NCBI RefSeq assembly: GCF_008124625.1
Contig: NZ_VNHM01000001.1
Location: 248,001 to 312,000, forward strand
Length of the DNA: 64,000 nt
Direction: 5' to 3'
From: Desulfallas thermosapovorans DSM 6562
Lineage (GTDB): Bacteria > Bacillota > Desulfotomaculia > Desulfotomaculales > Desulfallaceae
Both the position numbers and the translations under genes were made by a program. Below are positions 7,797-50,376 of the stretch, piece after piece. Each line of letters opens with the position of its first letter. Within the stretch, counting starts at the first letter, position 1. The notes beneath the pieces are model-generated. The model ran no database searches and was not told the DNA's origin. It saw only the letters and a program-made list of their open reading frames with translations.

Positions 7797-8939
7797 ATGC
7801 AGTGGAAAAAGTTAAATAAGATTACCTCAGCGCTGGCACTATTAGCCATATTAACGCTATTTGCAGGGATTTATGCAGCCTTTGCCGGAGTAACCTTCCG
7901 GACGGCAGTCAACCACCCGGTGGGCAGCAACCCCAACGGCATCACCGCGGCGGATTTTGACAATGATGGCAGAATAGATCTGGCCACGACAAACTTGTTG
8001 GACCATAACGTGTCGGTTTTGCTGGGTAACGGAGATGGCAGTTTCGACGCGGCTACCGACTTCCCGGTGGGGAATTCCCCCCGCGGTATAACTGCAGCGG
8101 ACTTTAACCACGACGGCAACATAGATCTGGCGGTAATAAACACTTTAAACGATAATGTTTCTGTTCTGCTGGGGGACGGTAACGGTAATTTCGGCCCGGC
8201 CACGAACTTTCCCGCCGGTAATCTGCCCATAGGCATTACCGCAGCGGACTGTGATAACGACAACAACGTGGACCTGGCGGTAACAAGCCTCAGTGATAAC
8301 GTTTCCATTCTTTTGGGTAACGGTGACGGCACCTTCGGGACAGCCACCGATTTTCCGGTGGGGCACTCTCCTTTCAGTATCACTGCGGCGGACTTTAACC
8401 ATGACGGTAATGTGGATCTGGCCACGGCCAATAATCTTGATAGCAGTGTATCAGTACTGCTGGGCAATGGCACCGGCAATTTCGCCCCGGCCACCGGCTC
8501 ACCATTCACGGTTGGGAACGGTCCCTTTGGTATTACAGCTGCAGATTTTAATCACGACAGCAATGTGGATTTGGCGGTGACAAATATTAACGAACAAAAC
8601 GCATCGGTATTGCTGGGCAACGGAACCGGCAATTTCACTTCAGCTCCCGGCTCTCCCTTTCTGGTGGGCGATGGACCCATAGGGATAGCCACAGCAGATT
8701 TCAACAATGACAATAACGTAGACCTGGCCGTGGCAAACTCCGGCGACTCGGATGTCTCAATCCTGTGGGGTGACGGGAAGGGCAGTTTCAAAGCAATCAC
8801 TGATTTCCCGGTGGGGGAGTTTCCTTTTGGCATCACCACAGCAGATTTTACAGGTGACAACAAGCCGGGACTGGCCACGGCAAATGCCAACTCGAACAAT
8901 GTCTCTGTTTTACTGCAGGAAGTATACGGTCACAAATAA
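7797..8939 (+). CDS. secreted FG-GAP/VCBS repeat protein, probably a seven-bladed beta-propeller
   Basis: A 380-residue protein with an N-terminal signal segment (hydrophobic residues 11-30, ending near AAFAG). The rest is seven tandem repeats of about 50 residues. Each has a PVG-x-x-P-x-GITAADF segment, a DxNxDxxxDL calcium-loop-like motif (for example DFDNDGRIDLA, DFNHDGNVDLA), then NVSVLLGNGDGSF. This is the FG-GAP/VCBS pattern of integrin-type propellers. The loop of the last repeat is degenerate (DFTGDNKPGLA), and the protein ends soon after it. There is no anchor motif, so it is probably released or loosely bound. No partner gene is adjacent, and its ligand is unknown. Confidence 0.85.
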   Translation: MQWKKLNKITSALALLAILTLFAGIYAAFAGVTFRTAVNHPVGSNPNGITAADFDNDGRIDLATTNLLDHNVSVLLGNGDGSFDAATDFPVGNSPRGITAADFNHDGNIDLAVINTLNDNVSVLLGDGNGNFGPATNFPAGNLPIGITAADCDNDNNVDLAVTSLSDNVSILLGNGDGTFGTATDFPVGHSPFSITAADFNHDGNVDLATANNLDSSVSVLLGNGTGNFAPATGSPFTVGNGPFGITAADFNHDSNVDLAVTNINEQNASVLLGNGTGNFTSAPGSPFLVGDGPIGIATADFNNDNNVDLAVANSGDSDVSILWGDGKGSFKAITDFPVGEFPFGITTADFTGDNKPGLATANANSNNVSVLLQEVYGHK

Positions 8940-10078: not shown

Positions 10079-10136
10079 ACTAAGACCTCCCATATAGTTT
10101 TATATTCTAGCACAGTCACTCCATTAGATTTGTACC

Positions 10137-10249
10137 ATAATTCACTTAGCAGAAAAAAATAATAGCTAAATATGTATCACAAAACAAGTGATCATTATTT
10201 TAGCTATTCGATAACCATATGGTTTATTCCTGCAAGGAAAGTGAATTAT
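10137..10249. repeat. nested inverted-repeat element
   Basis: Outer arms are a perfect 11-base inverted repeat, ATAATTCACTT (10137-10147) and AAGTGAATTAT (10239-10249). Inside, an imperfect pair of about 22 bases (around 10158-10180 and 10187-10209, containing TAGCTAAA and TTTAGCTA) surrounds AAAACAA. A separate perfect palindrome, AACCATATGGTT, is at 10213-10224. The segment is AT-rich and non-coding. It could be a small non-autonomous transposon or a structured RNA. Confidence 0.6.
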
Positions 10250-10293
10250 TTCTTTAAGTGACAAAAGTAAAGAAAAATTTTTACCTCAAATTT

Positions 10294-10641
10294 TCAGCAT
10301 TCAAACCAGGCCCGGGCATATTTCGTAGTGATGGGATAATGGTAATATTCGCCCGACAAACATTTTATAATTGCTATTATGGCGAAGACAGTATATACAA
10401 TTCCCAATATCGCCAGGGGAACGACCAGCAAAAATCCGATAAGTAAAAGGCACAGTATCCCCACCCCCACCCCTAAAAGCAGGGATATAATATGCATGGT
10501 CAGCGACTCCCGGGCGTGATGGTTAACAAAATCATCATCCTTCTTTAATAAATAGACAATCAGCGGCACCACTATAGGCAGGCCAAAGAATATGGAACCG
10601 TGACACACCGCACCTAAAAGTTTGCTTTCCGGTAAAACCAT
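10294..10641 (-). CDS. DUF4870 family membrane protein
   Basis: A 115-residue protein with about three membrane segments. The pattern HGSIFFGLPIVVPLIVYLLKK followed by DDDFVNHHARESLTMHI is the DUF4870 signature (N-H-x-x-E/Q-A/S-L). A small soluble tail carries GEYYHYP. The ATG at 10641 is preceded by GGAGGGAGGT. The function is unknown. It is a single gene upstream of the nested palindrome. Confidence 0.8.
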   Translation of the reverse strand: MVLPESKLLGAVCHGSIFFGLPIVVPLIVYLLKKDDDFVNHHARESLTMHIISLLLGVGVGILCLLLIGFLLVVPLAILGIVYTVFAIIAIIKCLSGEYYHYPITTKYARAWFEC

Positions 10642-37386: not shown

Positions 37387-37410
37387 GATTACCATACAAT
37401 TAAATATAGG

Positions 37411-37505
37411 CACACTGGGGGGGCTCCTGAAGCCGGGGCTGAGAGTAAAGCGGCAGCTTTTGACCCTTTGTACCTGATCTGGCTAATACCAGCGGAGGAA
37501 AGTGT
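37411..37505 (+). promoter_or_regulatory. TPP riboswitch (thi box)
   Basis: The conserved TPP aptamer elements are present in order: GGGGGGCTCC, GGGGCTGAGAGTAAAG, GACCCTTTGTACCTGATCTG, and AATACCAGCGGAGGAAAGTG. The ends (ACACT and AGTGT) pair to close P1. It precedes thiM, and the terminator at 37528-37560 follows, so high TPP should stop transcription. Confidence 0.97.
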
Positions 37506-37527
37506 AAATGATTTAAAAGTGTTTAAG

Positions 37528-41529: not shown

Positions 41530-41645
41530 GAATTCGATCCCCTGGAGGGGATTATTTTTATTCCGACTAATAATGTAGCTATTTACTTACACTGGAACGG
41601 CGGGAGGTTTCAATTCCCAAGGGGAATTATTTTTATTCTGCCACC
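41530..41645. CRISPR. degenerate CRISPR remnant: two diverged repeats with one spacer
   Basis: Two copies of the repeat family seen in the array at 47125-47317 lie here. The first (about 41532-41567) contains TCCCCTGGAGGGGATTATTT and ends TTTATTCCGAC; the second (about 41608-41643) contains TTTCAATTCC-CAAGGGGAATT and ends TTTATTCTGCC. They are separated by about 40 bases, a spacer-sized gap. The first copy keeps a stem (ATCCCC/GGGGAT) although its bases differ from the intact repeat, and the second has lost one base. No leader is recognised. Confidence 0.75.
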
Positions 41646-41719
41646 TTATCTAAACAATGCCGGCAAATGCGGTAAAAAAAACTATTAAGTGTTACCATCA
41701 TGCCGCCATATTAAGCCAA

Positions 41720-41755
41720 AACCTGCTACTATAACCAACAGTAACAGGTTTTTTA
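41720..41755 (-). terminator. weak hairpin after the mazF remnant
   Basis: AACCTG and CAGGTT pair across about 22 bases near 41718-41750, with TTTTTT on the plus strand. It could end the toxin-antitoxin transcript. Confidence 0.4.
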
Positions 41756-42115
41756 TGAGGAAAATAATTCAATTAAGCCCTGTTTTATTTTTTGAAAGAT
41801 CTTCTGTTCAAGCGTTCCCACTTATGACCTTATCCTGCGTATATCAACAGCGCGTATTTGGTCGATTAAAACTACTGATGGTTTGGGAAGCCCACCGCAA
41901 CCTTCAGGTATTTGCTGATACAGCAAAGGATTCCGCTTTGTCCATCTTCCAGTTTGCGAGGTTACAGGAACAACTATGACAACCGGGTAGCGAAGATAAC
42001 CCTAGTGCACAGCTGTTATTATTGCCGGTCTTACGCCTGCTTGTTCGTGCCCTTTGGGTAGGTGGGCGGGAAGACTGACTAAAACGACGTCTCCTGCTCT
42101 TATGCCGGCATTCAA
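41753..42115 (-). pseudogene. MazF/PemK-like toxin gene broken by two in-frame stops
   Basis: One continuous frame of 121 codons reads as a MazF-type RNase toxin: GIRAGDVVLVSLPAHLPKGH, EQAGVRPAIITAVH, stop (TAG), GYLRYPVVIVVPVTSQTGRW, TKRNPLLYQQIPEGCGGLP, PSVVLIDQIRAVDIRRIRS, stop (TAA), VGTLEQKIFQKIKQGLIELF. The RPAIIT, PVTSQT and IDQIR segments are MazF family marks. The TAA stands where a Tyr codon is expected. The TTG start overlaps the antitoxin stop (TTGA at 42112-42115), as in intact toxin-antitoxin operons. Both stops were read directly; the gene is probably dead. Confidence 0.8.
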
Positions 42116-42357
42116 GGTTCCCGTCCTCCTATAATTTCTAGGCCTTTTCCTTTAATATAGCGTACAGGCTTACCCTTCGGAGGTCCTTCAGCGCCCCAAT
42201 CATAGACGGGCCAATCTGCCAAATCGGCGTTTAGCCACTTGATGTCTTCAAAATGCGCCTCGTTTATGATAAATTCAAGAAACCTTTTTGCTACCGGAAT
42301 TTCTTTTTCTGGTAGCACATCTATCAACCGGTATAATTCTTTTCTTTGGATACTCAT
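42112..42357 (-). CDS. MazE-like (DUF2281-type) antitoxin
   Basis: An 81-residue protein. KELYRLIDVLPEKEIPVAKRFLEFIINEA resembles antitoxins of the DUF2281 type that sit ahead of MazF/PemK toxins. The C-terminal part, rich in Trp, Asp and Gly, probably wraps the toxin. Its stop overlaps the toxin start. With the toxin dead, it may be a relic or may act against other MazF proteins. The assignment is from pattern and position. Confidence 0.7.
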   Translation of the reverse strand: MSIQRKELYRLIDVLPEKEIPVAKRFLEFIINEAHFEDIKWLNADLADWPVYDWGAEGPPKGKPVRYIKGKGLEIIGGREP

Positions 42358-42360
42358 TTT

Positions 42361-42633
42361 TCACCACCCCTGCTTTCCTTTTCCTTTCTTCCTCTCCCTT
42401 TTCCTCTTCCAGACCAGATAATCAAGAATATTCTCCTTGTCTTCCTCATTTGGCGGTGCGCCGTCAAAATAAATGTTGGTGAACTTCAAGAATTCCTCTA
42501 GCTCCACGTTGGTGGGCGGTGTTTCCAGGTACCACCAGGCGGGATTGGAGGAGTCATTGGTGCGGCCAGGGTCATCTTTTGGGAATTCTATATCAATATT
42601 TATCTTACCACATAGCCCCACCGCAGAAAACAT
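42361..42633 (-). CDS. hypothetical protein upstream of the antitoxin gene
   Basis: A 90-residue frame, MFSAVGLCGKINIDIEFPKD at the start, WWYLETPPTNVELEEFLKF in the middle, and a very basic end (KRKRERKKGKGKQGW). It ends three bases before the antitoxin start, so it may belong to the same transcript. No good ribosome binding site is seen at the ATG, so it may be the 3' part of a longer lost gene. No function is proposed. Confidence 0.4.
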   Translation of the reverse strand: MFSAVGLCGKINIDIEFPKDDPGRTNDSSNPAWWYLETPPTNVELEEFLKFTNIYFDGAPPNEEDKENILDYLVWKRKRERKKGKGKQGW

Positions 42634-42811
42634 TAGATAAAATCCAAATGCCTGCTGCTAGTTCGTTGATAAATTCCAGCGGCGACAAGTCATATAAACT
42701 ACCATGCCCGGGCTATCCACTTGTCGGCTATTTCTATTGCAGCCGGCCATGCAAAAATTATATTATTTAACTAATTATCCCGTTAAATCAAAAAGGATAA
42801 AGGAGGAAAAA

Positions 42812-44980
42812 ATGGCCCTGGTAGAGTTTGATCTGTTTTTGGACGAAAGCGGAGTGTTTAATGATGCAACGTCGCAGGACCGGCGCAATTCGCTGGTGGG
42901 CGGGATACTTGTCCCCCGGGGTGCCCTGACCGAAAAGCAGGCTAGGGATATTCTGTTGTCCGCCTGCCGTGCCTCGGGCATAAACTGGTCCGGGCGGGGA
43001 ACGCTGCACGCCAATGAACTGCCCCGCGAAAAGTTTCCCGCCATGGCCCTGTCCACGGTTCGGCAGTTAACAGCCGGGCAGGTCAAAGTATTCATGGTTG
43101 AAAACACCGAAAGGTTGCAAATTGTTAACCCCGATATAACTTATTTGAACATGCTGGCGGAGGGTATTACCCAGCTTTTCAGCACCCTGAATACCCAGTA
43201 TGAAAGTATCAGCCTGTCCATTGACGCGGCTGTGCGCATGGTAAAGGATAAACAGCACCCCGGCTCGATCACAGGTATTGAGAGGCAGGAATACACCGCC
43301 CGGCTGCAGGAACGGTTGCACTGGGCCTGGCTGCGCCGGGGCATGGCCGGTGGCAGCAGTAAATGGGACGTAAAAAAATTTATCACCGGCTCCGCCAGGG
43401 AAGAGTACCGGCTCATGCTGGCGGATGTGCTGTGCCATGCCTGGTTTTGCAGAAATACCAAGTTTTCAGGTGCAGCACAACAAGAACTGCTGGCAACCAT
43501 CGAAGAGCACGGCTATATATACAGCGTACTGGAGTACGGCACCATCAGTGCCGTGGAGCGCCTGATGGCGGCCGGTGACCTGGGCGAAGCCTTTTTCATG
43601 ATTTGCACCTCCCTGCTAGAGGAACAAAGATTCAACCACCGGGCCACCGCCGATAAATTATATAAGCTTTTGCCCCGGCTGGTTAACAAGTTGATGGAAC
43701 TGCCGGACACCGGGCGTAACTACCACCTGACTACAATCAAAAACCGGATCAACTATATCATCAATGTGGACAGGCGGTACGACCAGGCCCTGTTTTTAAT
43801 GGAACTGCTCAATAACCACCTGTTACGCCCCCTGAAAGAAACACCTGCGGCCGCACTGGATGAAAATTTACTTAACCTGATTACACTGGAAATTTCCTCA
43901 TCAGTGCTGGCCATTGCCAATCACCGGGGCAACGTGCGCATGGCGGAGCAAATTATCAACGAAATAAAAGAAATCATCCCCCCGCTGGCCGGGCACTGGG
44001 AGAACTTCCAGCATATTATGGAATTTCTGTTCTGGGAAGCAGTGCATTTCAATAACTGCTATGATTTTGACGCCACCATCAAGCTGATGAATACCCTGGA
44101 ACGCTTTTATAACGATACCATCGAGCTATATCCAATCGCCCTGCCCGGAGTATTTCCGGACTCGATAAAATCGGATCTGAAAGGAAAAATACTGGGTAAC
44201 AGGCTGCAGGCTTACATGTTCAAAGGCAGGCTGGACCCCGCCAGTTACCGGCTGGCGCAGAGGGACTCCGACGCGGCACTGGACCAGTTCACCAGCGCCC
44301 ACGACCTGTCCCGGCATTACATGTACCGCTGCCACATCGAAACGGATGCCGGTAATTTCCAAGATGCGCTGCACTACCTGGCCCTGGGAGTGAATAAAAA
44401 ACAGCAGGAGGTCACCACCCAGGAAATTGCCGCGGCCCTGGCCGGCGACCGGCACAGGGAATATGATTTCGGCTTGATGCATTATGCCCGCCTGATGGCC
44501 GCCGCGGCCCCCGGGGAGTTGGCCGGTAATATGGAGCAGGCCTGGCAAAAACACGCTCTGGATAACCACCCGGTGCTGAAGGGTTTTACAGACCACCCGG
44601 TGGAAATCATATGCTGGAAAAAGGGCAGCTATTACCTGGCCACGGGCAGTATTAAAGCCGGGTTGGAGTGGCACCGCCGCGCCCTGGAAATTTGTTTCAG
44701 GGATAATGATAATGTAACACTACAGACCATCGGCCTGGGGGTGCTGGCAGAGCAAGCCGGGCACCTGGCCGGGGCCGGTGACAGGTACAGAAAGGAATAC
44801 AAAAATGCTGTGAAGAAAGCCATGGAAAAATACCGGGAGATTTTCGGCCAGCCCGGGCTGCCCGGGGCAATGGTGGACTATTTTGCCAGCTGGCCTGCGG
44901 TGCTGCAACAGGCCATGGAACGCCGGGACGAGGACACCGCCGCCGCACTGCTAAACCTGGCACACCGGATACCGTTTTAG
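42812..44980 (+). CDS. DUF3800-like nuclease-fold domain fused to a long helical-repeat region
   Basis: A 722-residue protein. Residues 5-250 show the DUF3800 pattern: FDLFLDESGVF with D11-E12, NSLVGGILVP, a His-Asn-Glu cluster LHANEL (66-70), D138 in SLSIDAAVR, and LADVLCHAWF with D205. This arrangement of acidic residues is that of RNase H-like metal nucleases, but activity is unproven. Residues 250-722 are helical with TPR-like stretches (for example AEQIINEIKEIIPPLAGHWE and YYLATGSIKAGLEWHRRALE). AAAGGAGG lies ahead of the ATG at 42812. It converges with the CARF-HEPN gene and lies between two CRISPR remnants. Function is inferred from context only. Confidence 0.75.
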   Translation: MALVEFDLFLDESGVFNDATSQDRRNSLVGGILVPRGALTEKQARDILLSACRASGINWSGRGTLHANELPREKFPAMALSTVRQLTAGQVKVFMVENTERLQIVNPDITYLNMLAEGITQLFSTLNTQYESISLSIDAAVRMVKDKQHPGSITGIERQEYTARLQERLHWAWLRRGMAGGSSKWDVKKFITGSAREEYRLMLADVLCHAWFCRNTKFSGAAQQELLATIEEHGYIYSVLEYGTISAVERLMAAGDLGEAFFMICTSLLEEQRFNHRATADKLYKLLPRLVNKLMELPDTGRNYHLTTIKNRINYIINVDRRYDQALFLMELLNNHLLRPLKETPAAALDENLLNLITLEISSSVLAIANHRGNVRMAEQIINEIKEIIPPLAGHWENFQHIMEFLFWEAVHFNNCYDFDATIKLMNTLERFYNDTIELYPIALPGVFPDSIKSDLKGKILGNRLQAYMFKGRLDPASYRLAQRDSDAALDQFTSAHDLSRHYMYRCHIETDAGNFQDALHYLALGVNKKQQEVTTQEIAAALAGDRHREYDFGLMHYARLMAAAAPGELAGNMEQAWQKHALDNHPVLKGFTDHPVEIICWKKGSYYLATGSIKAGLEWHRRALEICFRDNDNVTLQTIGLGVLAEQAGHLAGAGDRYRKEYKNAVKKAMEKYREIFGQPGLPGAMVDYFASWPAVLQQAMERRDEDTAAALLNLAHRIPF

Positions 44981-45003
44981 GGGCCTTTTGGCCGGCAAAT
45001 TAA

Positions 45004-45030
45004 AGCCCGGCTTTTTTGCCGGGCTATTCG
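45004..45030. terminator. bidirectional terminator between the two convergent island genes
   Basis: AGCCCGGC pairs with GCCGGGCT around six T residues. T-rich sequence follows mostly on the plus strand. Confidence 0.65.
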
Positions 45031-45143
45031 TTCGTTATTAATTGCCACCGGGGGATTCTTAAAAAATTAAAATGCGCGTAACAGAGATCGTCCCCCTGAA
45101 CATCCGGTGCAGGTATCTATTATGTGGTAATTGTACAGCCAGG

Positions 45144-46919
45144 TTAATCTCCCAGTTCTATCAATTCCCCCGTGACATAGGGCTGTTCCCGCTGTTCCGC
45201 CGGGTTCCGCCTGTCCACCAGGGCAATGCGCCGCACCTGGACGGCTCCGGATAATGCCTGTTCAAAGACTTGCTGCACAATATGCTGCATAGCCGTGGTG
45301 CCACCGGTGATATTCACCACCACCCGGCTATATTGCTTCATTAACGGCAGCGCAGCGGCACAAATACCCGGGCCTTCGGAAAAACCCGCATGGACGTCCT
45401 GCATATACCGGGTAAAAACATCACCTTCCCAGCTTGCCGCTTGCTTTATTTCATCCAGGTAACAGGCTGCATCAGCGGAAGATATAACAAACAGGGCGTC
45501 GGGATTAATGTGACGCAGGGCCGAATACAACAGCCCTTTGGAAAGCCCCAAAGGGGTGACCAGCAGCGTGCCGCCACCTAAGGGCTCGGCGCTTTCTGCA
45601 GCCATAGGAGAAAAATCAAGTCTCCATTTTGTACCATCTTCCAGCGCATCCTTTAATTCCTGCCACTTGGACCGGATATCCGCCAAGTGTTCTTGGCCCA
45701 GCAAAGCGTTGTTTTGCCGGAAACCATGGTGATGAAGGCCGTTGCGTTTATCCGTCATATATTTCCATAGAGAAGCCAGCCACTGTTGCTGCCCATCAAG
45801 TTGCTCCTTGCGATGACGGTAAGTATCACCCAATGCCCCCAGCTTTTCTTCTACACCCTTACGCCCGTAGTCTTTGTTGGAAAGCCACTTTTCACCAACC
45901 ACCTTTGGTTCATCCCCTGCCTGGACGTGATACAAGCAAACGGAAACCATCCATTCACGTATCAACCCGGCTGCAAAGTTTACATAACCCTGTTCCATAT
46001 ACCTGTCGATAATACTGGCCTGGCGCCGGAGTTCACAGTAATCCAGTCCAAGTTTTTGCTTTCCCTTTTTCAGTCCCGGCAGGGCAAAGGGAGTGATAAA
46101 TTGTTTTATGGTACCAAACAACTCCTCCGGCAGGGGCATTTGGGCCTGCAGGTGCTCCGGCAAAGGCCCGCTCAATTTTTTTAAGAGCTTGTCCGCCGCA
46201 ATACCAAACTCCAATGGCAACGCCTGGGCATAGGCATCAGCCACCTGTTTGAAGTCCTGGCGCAGTTTTTCCACCAACTCGTACGGCTTGCGTTCACGGC
46301 CGCTTACACCTTCCGGCAATACGGCGTAAGGTGCCAATCTATCTAACAGGCTGCCGGCCTGGCCGGTTTCTGAAAATATTCTGGCGGCATAAAACCATTC
46401 CACCATGTCCAGGATGAGGGATACATCCACAATTGGTTTAGGTTTATCCCTTTCTATCATTTCATAGAGGCCATAATAAGCCGCATCTATATTTACACCG
46501 CGAAGAGCTTTTAAATACAGAGCAGCAGTAAAAAATAAAAAGGGAAAAGTTCTATACCCGTGGGTTAAGTCCAGAGTAAGCCGGCATTTTGCAGGAATTA
46601 AATCTTGATCAACTAAAATTTCGTGCATAATCTGCCATAATTCTTCGGTTGATTTGCCATCGGGTATTTTAATGTATACTACATCCATCTTGGGATATTC
46701 CGTTATTACTTTTTCTCTAAACACCGGGTAAATTTTCTCCAAAATTAGAGTTGTGCACAAAACAATAATTTTATGCGGCAACTCTTCCCGTGGTAGGAGT
46801 TGCAGTAAAGCCAAAGTAGCCAAATCTGTTTCAACCTTTTTAGAAGCATCCTTTTCCAGGTAATACACTGTATTTTTTGGGTATGCACTCAATGAAGTTA
46901 ATAGAATTCTACCAGACAA
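45144..46919 (-). CDS. CARF-HEPN ribonuclease (Csx1/Csx2-like) with a second C-terminal CARF-like domain
   Basis: A 591-residue protein. Residues 1-185 resemble the TM1812/Csx2 type of CARF domain: RILLTSLSAYP, LPHKIIVLCT, LTLDLTHGYRTFPFLFFTAA with DLTHGYR at 117-123, and AAYYGLYE. The middle holds a HEPN RNase motif, R392-N393-x3-H397 (TDKRNGLHHHGF). Residues 448-591 form another Rossmann-like domain with LLVTPLGLSKGLLYSAL (453-468) and VVVNITGGTTAMQ (533-545), the loop found in Csm6-type CARF domains. CARF domains bind cyclic oligoadenylates made by Cas10 and switch on the HEPN nuclease. A TTG start at 46919 follows GAGGCG. A CRISPR array lies upstream, but no cas10 is visible here. Confidence 0.85.
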   Translation of the reverse strand: MSGRILLTSLSAYPKNTVYYLEKDASKKVETDLATLALLQLLPREELPHKIIVLCTTLILEKIYPVFREKVITEYPKMDVVYIKIPDGKSTEELWQIMHEILVDQDLIPAKCRLTLDLTHGYRTFPFLFFTAALYLKALRGVNIDAAYYGLYEMIERDKPKPIVDVSLILDMVEWFYAARIFSETGQAGSLLDRLAPYAVLPEGVSGRERKPYELVEKLRQDFKQVADAYAQALPLEFGIAADKLLKKLSGPLPEHLQAQMPLPEELFGTIKQFITPFALPGLKKGKQKLGLDYCELRRQASIIDRYMEQGYVNFAAGLIREWMVSVCLYHVQAGDEPKVVGEKWLSNKDYGRKGVEEKLGALGDTYRHRKEQLDGQQQWLASLWKYMTDKRNGLHHHGFRQNNALLGQEHLADIRSKWQELKDALEDGTKWRLDFSPMAAESAEPLGGGTLLVTPLGLSKGLLYSALRHINPDALFVISSADAACYLDEIKQAASWEGDVFTRYMQDVHAGFSEGPGICAAALPLMKQYSRVVVNITGGTTAMQHIVQQVFEQALSGAVQVRRIALVDRRNPAEQREQPYVTGELIELGD

Positions 46920-47006
46920 TTTTCTCGCCTCTTTTCATAAGATTTTGTTAAATTCATCAAAACCTATAATATCAAAACCCAGTAAAAAATTTTTTTCAAA
47001 ATTAAT

Positions 47007-47030
47007 AATAGAGCCTATATGGGCTCTATT
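47007..47030. repeat. perfect inverted repeat upstream of the CARF-HEPN gene
   Basis: AATAGAGCC and GGCTCTATT form a 9-base stem around six bases. It lies about 90 bases upstream of the CARF-HEPN start and 95 bases before the first CRISPR repeat. It may be an operator, terminator or leader structure. Confidence 0.5.
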
Positions 47031-47124
47031 CTACCGTATCCTCGAAAACCACGTTTGCAACATAAGGGGAATTATTCCGGCCAGAAGCAATTACGAGCAA
47101 AGTAGGAGGGGTTTTTAATATACA

Positions 47125-47317
47125 GCTTCAATTCCCCAAGGGGAATTATTTTTATTCAGACATACCGGTTTAGGAGATGAAACCTTCCCCTGGGAGTTTA
47201 CATTGCTTCAATTCCCCAAGGGGAATTATTTTTATTCAGACGTCGCTGGACGACAGCGACAGCGGACGTCACTTGCACATGTTTCAATTCCCCAAGGGGA
47301 ATTATTTTTATTCAGAC
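47125..47317. CRISPR. CRISPR array: three 37-base repeats, two spacers
   Basis: Three repeats at 47125-47161, 47205-47241 and 47281-47317 are identical except that the third has T in place of C at the second base. Each starts G(C/T)TTCAATTCCCC, has the palindrome AATTCCCCAAGGGGAATT and ends ATTTTTATTCAGAC. Spacers are 43 bases (47162-47204) and 39 bases (47242-47280). A further fragment AAGGGGAATTATT at 47068-47080 suggests a decayed repeat on the left. No cas1 or cas2 gene is visible. The direction of transcription is unknown. Confidence 0.95.
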
Positions 47318-47657
47318 TGCAGGGGTGCTCAGCCCTTGCGGCCCAAGGCCTCCAGAAACGTTTTTCGAGAACCTCCGTTAAGACACCTTATTTTTACCAA
47401 TATGTGGCATTGATCAGATAAAGTCAAACAAACATGCAAGTTTTTCCACCTCTACAATTCGCTATTGGCGCGGGTTTTCCTGCTTCCTTCAACAAAAAGT
47501 TTTTTTGCGAGAACCTCCGGGGTTTTTTGCACACCGGAGGTTCTCGATGTCTGACAATTCTATTTAAGGCCCAGCCCCTGGCCGGTCATAGATGGAATTT
47601 TAGACCAGCGAAAGCACCTTTAAACGTAGGAACAGTTTGACCAGGGAATATTATAAA
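47318..47657. other. non-coding region after the CRISPR array
   Basis: No gene is seen. The region contains a 12-base word CGAGAACCTCCG at 47366-47377 that recurs at 47508-47519 and, inverted, at 47535-47546, plus T-rich stretches. The perfect hairpin is listed separately. Confidence 0.5.
47508..47546. repeat. perfect 13-base inverted repeat
   Basis: CGAGAACCTCCGG (47508-47520) and its exact complement (47534-47546) flank GGTTTTTTGCACA. A third, direct copy of most of the word lies at 47366-47377. It lies between the array and a radical SAM gene and could be a mobile-element end or an RNA structure. Confidence 0.6.
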
Positions 47658-48851
47658 CTAGAACAACCTGGGTTCCTTGTTTTCTTTGATCTGTTTGCTC
47701 CACCTGCGATAGTCTTTTAACTTCCAGGCTCCGCCGCCGGCCAGCTCACTGATACCGCAAACCGGTTCTTTACATAACAAGCAGGCCCCGTCGCAATTCA
47801 CCGGTCTAAAAGTACCGCCTTGCCTGATGTATAAAGGGACGTCCAAACCTTCGCAATTCCTGGTGGTCATAAACTCCCGGTTTAAACCGTGCACCCGTCC
47901 ATTTACCGATTCATATTCCATGCACAGGGCCAAACTCACCCCGTGCCGGCGGCAAATACCAGACATCATTTGAAACAGTAAACGGCGGGTATTTATATTG
48001 ACATGCCACTGGCCGTCCAGGTTTTCTGTATACAGCTCCCGGTACAAGCGGGGAATACTGCTGTTGATACCCGCAAGCTGCGCTATCAGGACAGGCCTGA
48101 TTTTTTGCGGAATATCCATACAACTGGTGATAATATGATCTGCACCGGCCTTAACCGCCATACCCACCAGTTGGTCCAGTTGTCTTTCATCATCAGTGAT
48201 GCCGGGAATAATGGGGTCTATGCGGCATACAGCAAATTTGCCGGCCTGTTTTAACCGGGTTAAATTATCCAACAGTTTTTCAGTGGGTGCACCGCCCGGC
48301 ACTAAACGCCGGCGCAACTCCTCATCCGGGGTAATAATGGATACCTGCCCGAAAGAATGTTCCTGTTTTTCCATTAACCTGAGGGCCTCATCCGTGATAA
48401 CATTTTTAGTGATGAACTCAATGGGCAAATTGCGGTCCACAAAAACTTTAATTAGCTTTTCGGACAGTTGATACTTGATATTTAAAGGCTGAAAAGGGTC
48501 TGTCACCGGAGACAGGTACCCGCAGCTGGCCACTTCCAGCCCGTCCAGCTGGCGGGCCACTTCGAGATGGAAATCTTCAAAAACTGTAACTATTTTCCGG
48601 CTGTGATAAAGATTAAAATATCCCCACATAGCATGGGCATAACAAAAGGCACAATTATGGGTGCACCCGTTGTAAGGGTTTACCAGCAGTCGCTCCGCGG
48701 TACACTCCCGCTTGCCCGGCCACCACCCGTGCAGTTCCTTGGCGGATTTAACGACAATGTGTTTACAGGGCAGTTCCACCAGCGGAAACGTTTTAGTTAC
48801 CTTGCCGAACTTCAAGCTAACCTGTTGGTTATGATTCTTTCTATCGCACAT
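47658..48851 (-). CDS. radical SAM protein, SplB-related family
   Basis: A 397-residue radical SAM enzyme. The cluster motif is C-x3-C-x2-C in NGCTHNCAFCYAHAM near residue 63. The pattern YLSPVTDPFQPLN, EFITKN and SIITPDEELRRRLVPGGAP matches a large family related to spore photoproduct lyase. A second cysteine-rich area near the end (CDGACLLCKEPVC) may hold another cluster. The substrate is unknown. It is the first gene right of the accessory island, on the minus strand with the Rsm22-like gene upstream. Confidence 0.8.
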   Translation of the reverse strand: MCDRKNHNQQVSLKFGKVTKTFPLVELPCKHIVVKSAKELHGWWPGKRECTAERLLVNPYNGCTHNCAFCYAHAMWGYFNLYHSRKIVTVFEDFHLEVARQLDGLEVASCGYLSPVTDPFQPLNIKYQLSEKLIKVFVDRNLPIEFITKNVITDEALRLMEKQEHSFGQVSIITPDEELRRRLVPGGAPTEKLLDNLTRLKQAGKFAVCRIDPIIPGITDDERQLDQLVGMAVKAGADHIITSCMDIPQKIRPVLIAQLAGINSSIPRLYRELYTENLDGQWHVNINTRRLLFQMMSGICRRHGVSLALCMEYESVNGRVHGLNREFMTTRNCEGLDVPLYIRQGGTFRPVNCDGACLLCKEPVCGISELAGGGAWKLKDYRRWSKQIKENKEPRLF

Positions 48852-48925
48852 ACAATACCTCCATACTGACAGCAGACAAAATTATTAACAAGACCGGTTA
48901 AACGACTCCAATGAATTTGCTCAAT

Positions 48926-50287
48926 TTAGCGATATACAACGGCTTTCGTATCCCCACTCAACTTAAGGGTGTAATGACTGCCCCGCGCACCGGGAGCCAC
49001 ACCAACGCCACGCAAATCAATAAAGTCACCGTGTCTGACACTGCGCAGCATATCATTAGCCGGGCTCCAACAGTTTCCCCGGGCTTCTATATAACAATAA
49101 TTATGGGTACCGCAGGTGCCATCGCAAATGTCTATTATCATCAACTCGCTGCGCCGGTAAACGTTGGTGGCCACCCCAACTATGTTCACTTTTTCTCCCA
49201 TATATTTATAGCCGTGCAGCAATTTAACATATCCCTCCCGGGCATATTTCCCGGGGTTGCGATGGGCTTTAAACCGGTTCAACCCGTCCTTGCGCAGTAT
49301 TAAATAGTTAAAATCCACATCATTTTTGGAACAAGCCCCGTACTTTTCAAGTACCTGCACGGAAGCAGGTTTATGCCACGGCTCACAGGCATGACTCCAG
49401 CAAGCGCATCGCCGCTGCTTCCCGGGGTATTTCTTCCACGGGTAAGCACAGGGGGCAAAAGCAGTGGCCAATCCAGCAGACTTTAACTGCCAGTGTAAAC
49501 GGGCGATCCTGCGGGAAATGCCTTCTGTTGCCGGTTCAATAATGACCAGGCTGCCGTTATCAGCGGTCATCTCCAGGGCAAATTGGACAACATCCAGAGC
49601 CGAAGTTGTATCATGAAGTTCGTATTCATTAATTACATGGGAGGGCACGACCAGATTATAGCCCCCTGTGTTTAATAATTTACGAAGCTGATCGCTTTCT
49701 TTTTCCAGGCAGCCACAAACAACAGGATTGACCTTAACCGGGAAAGAGATTTGCTGCAGCACCTGCCAGCTTTTTATATTAGCCAGTGCAAAGTCCAAAT
49801 GCTCCCGGAAGCGGTCCAAAAGCGTAATTTCCACACTCAGGCCTTCCTTGCCGGCAACCAAAGATATCATATCGTAAAAATAAAGAACGGCCAACGAAAC
49901 GGTGCCGGGGCCGGTTCCAATATCCAACAGTTTCAATTTTTTAGGGAGCACTCCTCCCCGTAACAGCCCGAGCAAAACCCTGAGCACTTTGGGAAAATTA
50001 GCCGGCAGGTAATATAAACTGTATGCCGTCCACAACCGGGAATAGTCAGTGGGACCGGCTTGACCTTTGTATGCCGTGGAGATATTACCGGCCAAATGAC
50101 TGAGAATCTCCCGCCCCCATCCCTCCATCACTGCAACAACATCCCCCGGTGCCACGGGCCATCCCATGGAGCGAGATATTTTTCGTGCCAGCATACCGCC
50201 AAGATTGTCGGGAAACAGCCAGCTGCCCCCGGGGCAAAGGATATTTTCCAACCGGTTATACTGTTTTTCATTTAAACGCAAGTACAT
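48926..50287 (-). CDS. Rsm22-like ribosomal small-subunit methyltransferase family protein
   Basis: A 453-residue protein with a SAM-binding domain (LKLLDIGTGPGTVSLAVLYF near 120; SLVIIEPATEGISRRIARLH near 275) followed by the cysteine motif FAPCAYPWKKYP, RRCACWSHACEPWH near 305. This combination is the mark of the Rsm22/METTL17 family, needed for small ribosomal subunit assembly in mitochondria. The bacterial function is not known to me. The C-terminal 60 residues are a beta-rich domain. I chose the ATG at 50287, 11 bases after AAAGGAG; the frame is open to 50317. Confidence 0.75.
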   Translation of the reverse strand: MYLRLNEKQYNRLENILCPGGSWLFPDNLGGMLARKISRSMGWPVAPGDVVAVMEGWGREILSHLAGNISTAYKGQAGPTDYSRLWTAYSLYYLPANFPKVLRVLLGLLRGGVLPKKLKLLDIGTGPGTVSLAVLYFYDMISLVAGKEGLSVEITLLDRFREHLDFALANIKSWQVLQQISFPVKVNPVVCGCLEKESDQLRKLLNTGGYNLVVPSHVINEYELHDTTSALDVVQFALEMTADNGSLVIIEPATEGISRRIARLHWQLKSAGLATAFAPCAYPWKKYPGKQRRCACWSHACEPWHKPASVQVLEKYGACSKNDVDFNYLILRKDGLNRFKAHRNPGKYAREGYVKLLHGYKYMGEKVNIVGVATNVYRRSELMIIDICDGTCGTHNYCYIEARGNCWSPANDMLRSVRHGDFIDLRGVGVAPGARGSHYTLKLSGDTKAVVYR

Positions 50288-50376
50288 CAAATCCCACGCT
50301 CCTTTCCGCATAAGCATACACTGGAGCGCCGGGAAAATTTTTTCAAAACCCCGGTAACAAAAACACCACCATTGCT

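Follow-up and report, generated by a model that had tools for sequence, protein, structure and literature searches.

Within a 64,000-nucleotide stretch of the genome of Desulfallas thermosapovorans DSM 6562 (contig NZ_VNHM01000001.1, positions 248,001 to 312,000; hereafter the window, in whose coordinates positions are given), we have studied an island (41531-47317) lying between rnhB and a radical SAM gene, in which two large intact genes stand between CRISPR fragments found at both ends. One gene encodes a CARF-HEPN-CARF protein; the other encodes a protein joining a DUF3800 (RNase HII-like) domain to helical repeats, which we call DUF3800-helical. We consider it rather probable that the island is the remnant of a type III CRISPR-Cas locus, and that the DUF3800-helical protein is a second nuclease of such loci. 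In this scenario, all that survived would be two accessory genes and a few repeats, after the loss of the RNA-sensing complex together with Cas6 and the genes for adaptation. More generally, the DUF3800-helical protein seems to be an overlooked component of type III systems in several bacterial lineages.

The case is carried by the neighbours of related genes. The DUF3800-helical gene is present in 4/113 genomes of the class, and a scan of genome contigs for relatives found five loci only. Eight of 18 full-length relatives lie in or by type III loci (III-A, III-B, III-D or III-like) or in the remnant of the window. In a metagenome-assembled genome of the sister species Desulfoscipio geothermicus (G011), the orthologue, 74% identical, adjoins a CARF-HEPN-Csx3 gene and cmr6-5-4-3-2-1, and the radical SAM and methyltransferase genes seen in the window lie within a few kb. 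The G033 gene follows a CARF-HEPN gene at 50 bp; its locus also holds cas6, cas2, cas4-cas1, cmr1-6, a CARF-HEPN-CARF gene, WYL genes and arrays of the same Rfam repeat family as those of the window. In G034, from another family, the gene is found by CRISPR-DR63 arrays, two WYL genes, the same radical SAM and methyltransferase genes and a III-A locus. A more distant relative (G130, 36% identity, from another family in the phylum sample) follows cmr6 at a distance of 40 bp and in the same orientation, and the opposite end of the cmr operon carries a CARF-HEPN gene. Two distant genomes show the tightest spacing: the CARF-HEPN and DUF3800 open reading frames (ORFs) of G727 share 4 bp (L066 8978-8981), an array and type III-like genes being within about 15 kb, and in G600, whose III-D locus also has cas1, cas2 and an array of 19 repeats, the gene begins about 4 bp behind the CARF-HEPN gene. 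Finally, the G758 gene is 30 bp behind cas6, with type III-like genes about 19 kb away on the same contig, and G705 has only an array, 2 kb from the gene. The CRISPR neighbours identified were type III (or I-B) genes, and neither Cas12 (Cas12a2 included) nor Cas13 was seen beside the relatives. No relative was found among viral contigs by profile search, or in plasmids and phages by tblastn.

The first-pass annotation, made from the letters alone, had offered the DUF3800-helical protein as an unrecognised component and had let its reading depend on the two large genes occurring together elsewhere. They do: in G011, G033, G727 and G600 the gene stands directly next to a CARF-HEPN gene, and the repeated linkage to type III genes speaks for such a component. 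No other single observation argues as strongly for a functional link as the overlapping or abutting CARF-HEPN ORFs in two of these genomes. Strong matches to the Cas10 palm (E<=1e-20) occur in 9/14 phylum genomes that carry the gene, versus 86/398 in the phylum sample (binomial 0.0007, not corrected for relatedness); weaker matches (E about 1e-4 to 1e-11) were left uncounted because the same model also scores in E. coli. We also placed a CRISPR label (the eight type III or remnant cases and G705) on a tree of the 18 relatives, where it needs four changes, at least three of them forced by the starred branches. Label shuffles reached as few changes in 29/500 cases, so that clustering alone is weak evidence and the weight lies on recurrence.

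The same loci bear on a different role within type III systems, namely that the DUF3800-helical protein is a nuclease of RNA processing or of CRISPR RNA (crRNA) maturation, trimming crRNAs as is proposed for the NYN ribonuclease of the Bacteroides fragilis Cmr system, and idle here for want of the complex. The gene is the last of the cmr operon in G130 and follows cas6 closely in G758, and NYN is an earlier case of a type III ribonuclease for which crRNA trimming has been proposed (PMC11346440). Yet the signalling branch is favoured by the near-overlapping ORFs of G727 and G600 and by the immediate CARF-HEPN neighbours in G033 and G011, and relatives also occur away from any array; we consider this role unlikely.

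The island itself fits a decayed locus. CRISPR fragments of one repeat family had been described on both sides, and indeed five copies of a 37-nucleotide (nt) repeat, three good and two worn, flank it; Rfam places them in CRISPR-DR63 on the minus strand, so that the crRNA-proximal repeat ends read ATTGAAAC or ATTGAAGC. The worn fragment (41531-41642, minus strand), recognised by repeat identity and by its Rfam match (at 41607-41642), consists of two copies (41531-41567, 73% identity; 41606-41642, 81%) around one 38-nt spacer. The array remnant at the other end (47125-47317, minus strand) has three near-identical copies (47125-47161, 47205-47241 and 47281-47317; 97-100% identity) separated by spacers of 39 and 43 nt. 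With near-identical repeats at regular intervals (75-80 nt within each fragment) and spacers unlike one another, these are CRISPR arrays. As searched for at the suggestion of the first-pass annotation, no further copy of the repeat (<=3 mismatches) exists elsewhere in the 2.96-Mb assembly. Neither intact spacer has an exact 30-base match in viral contigs, and one of them, compared with phages by blastn, gave chance-level matches only. The island has no cas10 and no backbone genes of a type III locus, cmr1-6, cas6, cas1 and cas2 all being absent, and no DUF3800-associated Rfam RNA motif was found in it or in six relatives.

The DUF3800-helical gene (42812-44980, plus strand) is intact, starting at an ATG behind an AAGGAGG site and encoding 722 amino acids. 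Its product matches no family profile, PF12686 included, while PF12686 matches 10/18 homologous N-terminal domains (E <= 1; best 1.6e-6). A full-length model built from four sequences left much of the N-terminal domain (42812-43600) below a predicted local distance difference test score of 50, and we used instead a domain model made by AlphaFold2 from the 18-sequence alignment (predicted TM-score 0.82). Its best structural match is RNase HII 1eke (Z 12.0, 3.6 A over 168 residues), and the top 18 matches are exclusively type 2 RNases H (RNase HII/HIII), with Z well above those of proteins other than RNases H; Foldseek alone returned nothing at E <= 0.001. The DUF3800 fold assigned at first reading is borne out by the RNase HII-like predicted fold and by PF12686 among the homologues. 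Among the homologues the invariant residues include the DESG of the first strand (residues 11-14, numbered from the ATG at 42812), a His (His66), an Arg and the Asp of LMLAD (Asp205). Of the acids of an RNase HII-type active site (an Asp-Glu pair in the first strand plus two more), the D-E of DESG and the late Asp are conserved, and the fourth strand has no conserved acid; a mostly conserved Glu/Asp at position 117 (Glu117 here), in the helix preceding that strand, may substitute for it in the model. A catalytic rearrangement has been described for DUF3800, and the acid pattern seen here is consistent with it (PMC10910872). The C-terminal two thirds (43601-44980) are all-helical by predicted secondary structure, with TPR-like stretches recognised by consensus TPR chains (best E 1.4e-4).

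On the opposite strand, the convergent gene at 45144-46919 (minus strand) encodes an intact protein of 591 amino acids in the Csx1/TM1812 group, as indicated by PADLOC, NCBIfam and motif alignment. It matches CARF2--CARF_HEPN_CARF (PDLC01840) at 3.4e-188 over residues 1-590, its whole length, and this full-length match shows a second, C-terminal CARF domain behind the HEPN domain. Profile search thus finds the CARF and HEPN domains proposed at first reading and adds a CARF domain that had gone unmentioned. The NCBIfam search gives the DxTHG motif, the HEPN R-x4-H motif is intact (R392-N393-x3-H397, invariant among five aligned homologues, the window protein and four others), and the CARF motif is also conserved in these four. 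The protein is predicted to be an RNase activated by cyclic oligoadenylate.

Such conservation matters for a reading of the island as a genetic fossil, in which decay would be so recent that the two large genes are still open, though neither expressed nor useful. An array reduced to two spacers and worn ends, a dead mazF gene (see below) and the absence of cas genes all suit it. However, neither ORF is truncated and both retain their diagnostic residues, and the DUF3800-helical gene has been under purifying selection between D. thermosapovorans and G011 (ratio of nonsynonymous to synonymous substitution rates 0.16), even if an average over two species is blind to the time after the loss. We hold the fossil improbable, on a par with the crRNA-trimming role.

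If the island is a remnant, as we favour, a source of messenger could lie elsewhere in the genome. The first-pass annotation had noted that no cas10, cas1 or cas2 lies in the window, and had suggested a detached type III module fed by a cas10 elsewhere. Indeed, confident Cas10 and Cas1 matches occur on contig C23 only, and none on the contig of the window. C23 carries a complete type III-B operon, cmr1 to cmr6, with the GGDD of Cas10 intact, two WYL regulators and its own CARF-HEPN-CARF paralogue. A type I-B set comes next, including cas4, cas1, cas2 and the first part of an array built on another repeat, of 30 nt. The cmr genes of C23 share 73-83% identity with those of G009 and only 42-62% with those of G011, so the C23 system is not that of the sister species moved elsewhere. 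In G009 (L024 417-8998) the Cmr operon and the CARF-HEPN-CARF gene are 70-83% identical to those of C23. The detached module thus gains from this operon with its cyclase motif and from the close DUF3800 relatives inside intact type III loci, whereas the feeding itself stays conditional: the Cas10 of C23 could supply messenger to the island in trans. The idea has a statistical precedent, since genomes with type III loci that lack an effector and have the cyclase are 2.57 times likelier to hold several type III loci (PMC11229360). The stand-alone signalling system also suggested at the time is without support.

We can envisage the following mechanism. In an intact locus, target RNA would be bound by the Cmr or Csm complex, upon which Cas10 would make cyclic oligoadenylate; this would open the HEPN RNase of the CARF protein, whose second CARF domain probably tunes or terminates the signal. 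The DUF3800-helical protein would use its helical repeats to dock on either the CARF-HEPN protein or the effector complex and, once this partner is active, would cut RNA or RNA-DNA hybrid at its RNase HII-like metal site. In D. thermosapovorans the messenger could come in trans from C23.

Several observations weigh against this scenario. Around nine other relatives, the 8-22 kb that were read contain no CRISPR genes, and some of these relatives adjoin Hsp70-like or membrane proteins instead; with about half of the 18 thus away from type III genes, the family is not specific to CRISPR. The G011 locus lies on the opposite side of the radical SAM-methyltransferase pair, so that its site is near that of the window and not identical to it. 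No fossil of cmr, cas6, cas1 or cas2 was found by tblastn in 40.4-48.9 kb, and the loss of a cmr operon from the island is deduced from relatives for that reason. The window CARF protein and the C23 paralogue fall in different PADLOC subgroups (PDLC01840 and PDLC01839), and may therefore need different messengers. Finally, the DUF3800-helical protein showed no messenger-binding domain and is a nuclease by prediction.

Some of these points would suit a third alternative, in which a dying array sits in a defence hotspot that gathered two unrelated genes, the DUF3800 protein coming from another defence system. The nine CRISPR-free relatives agree with it, as do the convergent arrangement in the window, where the two genes form no operon, and the presence of a mazF remnant, a sign that the site collects such genes. 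This mazF-like pseudogene (41905-42112, limits approximate, minus strand) has an in-frame stop after ...VRPAIITAVH by frame reading and is preceded by an antitoxin-like ORF of 81 amino acids (42112-42357, minus strand), which is open and without convincing family match; of the dead MazEF-like pair once proposed, then, only the toxin half is dead. We regard the pseudogene as a passenger, probably foreign to the system. Against the hotspot, the pairing recurs with different CARF-HEPN subfamilies, both convergent and operonic, and the tree demands its three or more label changes. We find it slightly more doubtful than the two preceding alternatives.

Relatives of the DUF3800-helical gene keep other company as well. 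In G033 (L023 6562-8333), an SMC-like AAA ATPase and a small partner directly behind the gene resemble a known two-gene defence-type pair. Multi-gene operons free of CRISPR genes include an Hsp70-like ATPase (L063 8936-18614) or large unknown proteins (L064, L065) and are possibly another defence system; two L063 proteins tested against PADLOC gave no match. In uncultured Clostridia and Bacillales, the gene stands beside two membrane proteins (L030 6122-12115, L031 6609-12399, L032 6425-12115).

Around the island, the radical SAM gene (47658-48851) had been taken for a core gene, which it is not: it is found with confidence in only 2/16 family genomes, the very two that carry the DUF3800-helical gene. 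The radical SAM-methyltransferase pair (47658-50317) again adjoins this gene and arrays in G034, outside the family. Between island and pair, a 13-17 nt element, CGAGAACCTCCG, occurs as two direct copies and one inverted (47361-47549, 47434-47640), with a near-perfect hairpin at 47508-47546. The spurious ORF that spans it (MQVFPPLQFA...FLHTGGSRCLTI) is similar to others, also spurious, next to a CARF-HEPN fragment of G008 (L026 about 8465-8737 and 10118-10438), and the region may hence be a dispersed repeat element. On the other side, a thiamine pyrophosphate riboswitch (37407-37517) exceeds the Rfam gathering score upstream of thiamine genes.

Many type III accessory proteins have an open role, and a nuclease-fold protein coupled to CARF-HEPN genes across III-A, III-B and III-D would, if true, be a further component, unrecognised by PADLOC 2.0 and NCBIfam, and a link between type III and the Cas12a2 and VI-F loci in which this architecture has been noticed. 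The window would be a natural test case for effectors fed in trans by a Cas10 encoded at another site of the genome. Separately, CARF-HEPN-CARF proteins, effectors served in trans and TPR-DUF3800 accessories are already known; of TPR-DUF3800 with type III systems we found no report in the open literature, PADLOC or NCBIfam, the surveys of Shah 2019 and Makarova 2020 being outside this scope. We advance very tentatively a broader idea, in which TPR-DUF3800 would be a second-strike nuclease shared by the RNA-sensing types III, V-A2 and VI-F, triggered when it docks on an activated partner or meets RNA fragments from collateral cleavage, and not by cyclic oligoadenylate.

Compared with known systems, the CARF-HEPN-CARF protein has the already known architecture of its group (full-length PDLC01840 match, DxTHG, HEPN R-N-x3-H, second CARF at the C-terminus), but its gene lies without a cas10 locus and beside a DUF3800-helical gene. 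With the type III-B Cmr loci of G011, G033 and G130 the island shares the DUF3800-helical gene, the CARF-HEPN gene and, for G033, the repeat family, while lacking cmr1-6, cas6, cas1 and cas2. NYN ribonuclease is likewise an accessory enzyme of an RNA-sensing CRISPR system, and Csx29 TPR-CHAT likewise joins TPR repeats to an enzyme domain and binds its effector; both differ in catalytic domain, the comparison being one of architecture taken from the literature. There is also a likeness in design to the TPR-DUF3800 accessories reported with Cas12a2 (V-A2) and the DUF3800 nuclease of some VI-F loci (PMC10910872, PMC12669027), where an RNase H-fold DUF3800 and TPR-like repeats also accompany an RNA-triggered CRISPR effector; this is a likeness of architecture, and the partners here are type III genes and CARF-HEPN proteins.

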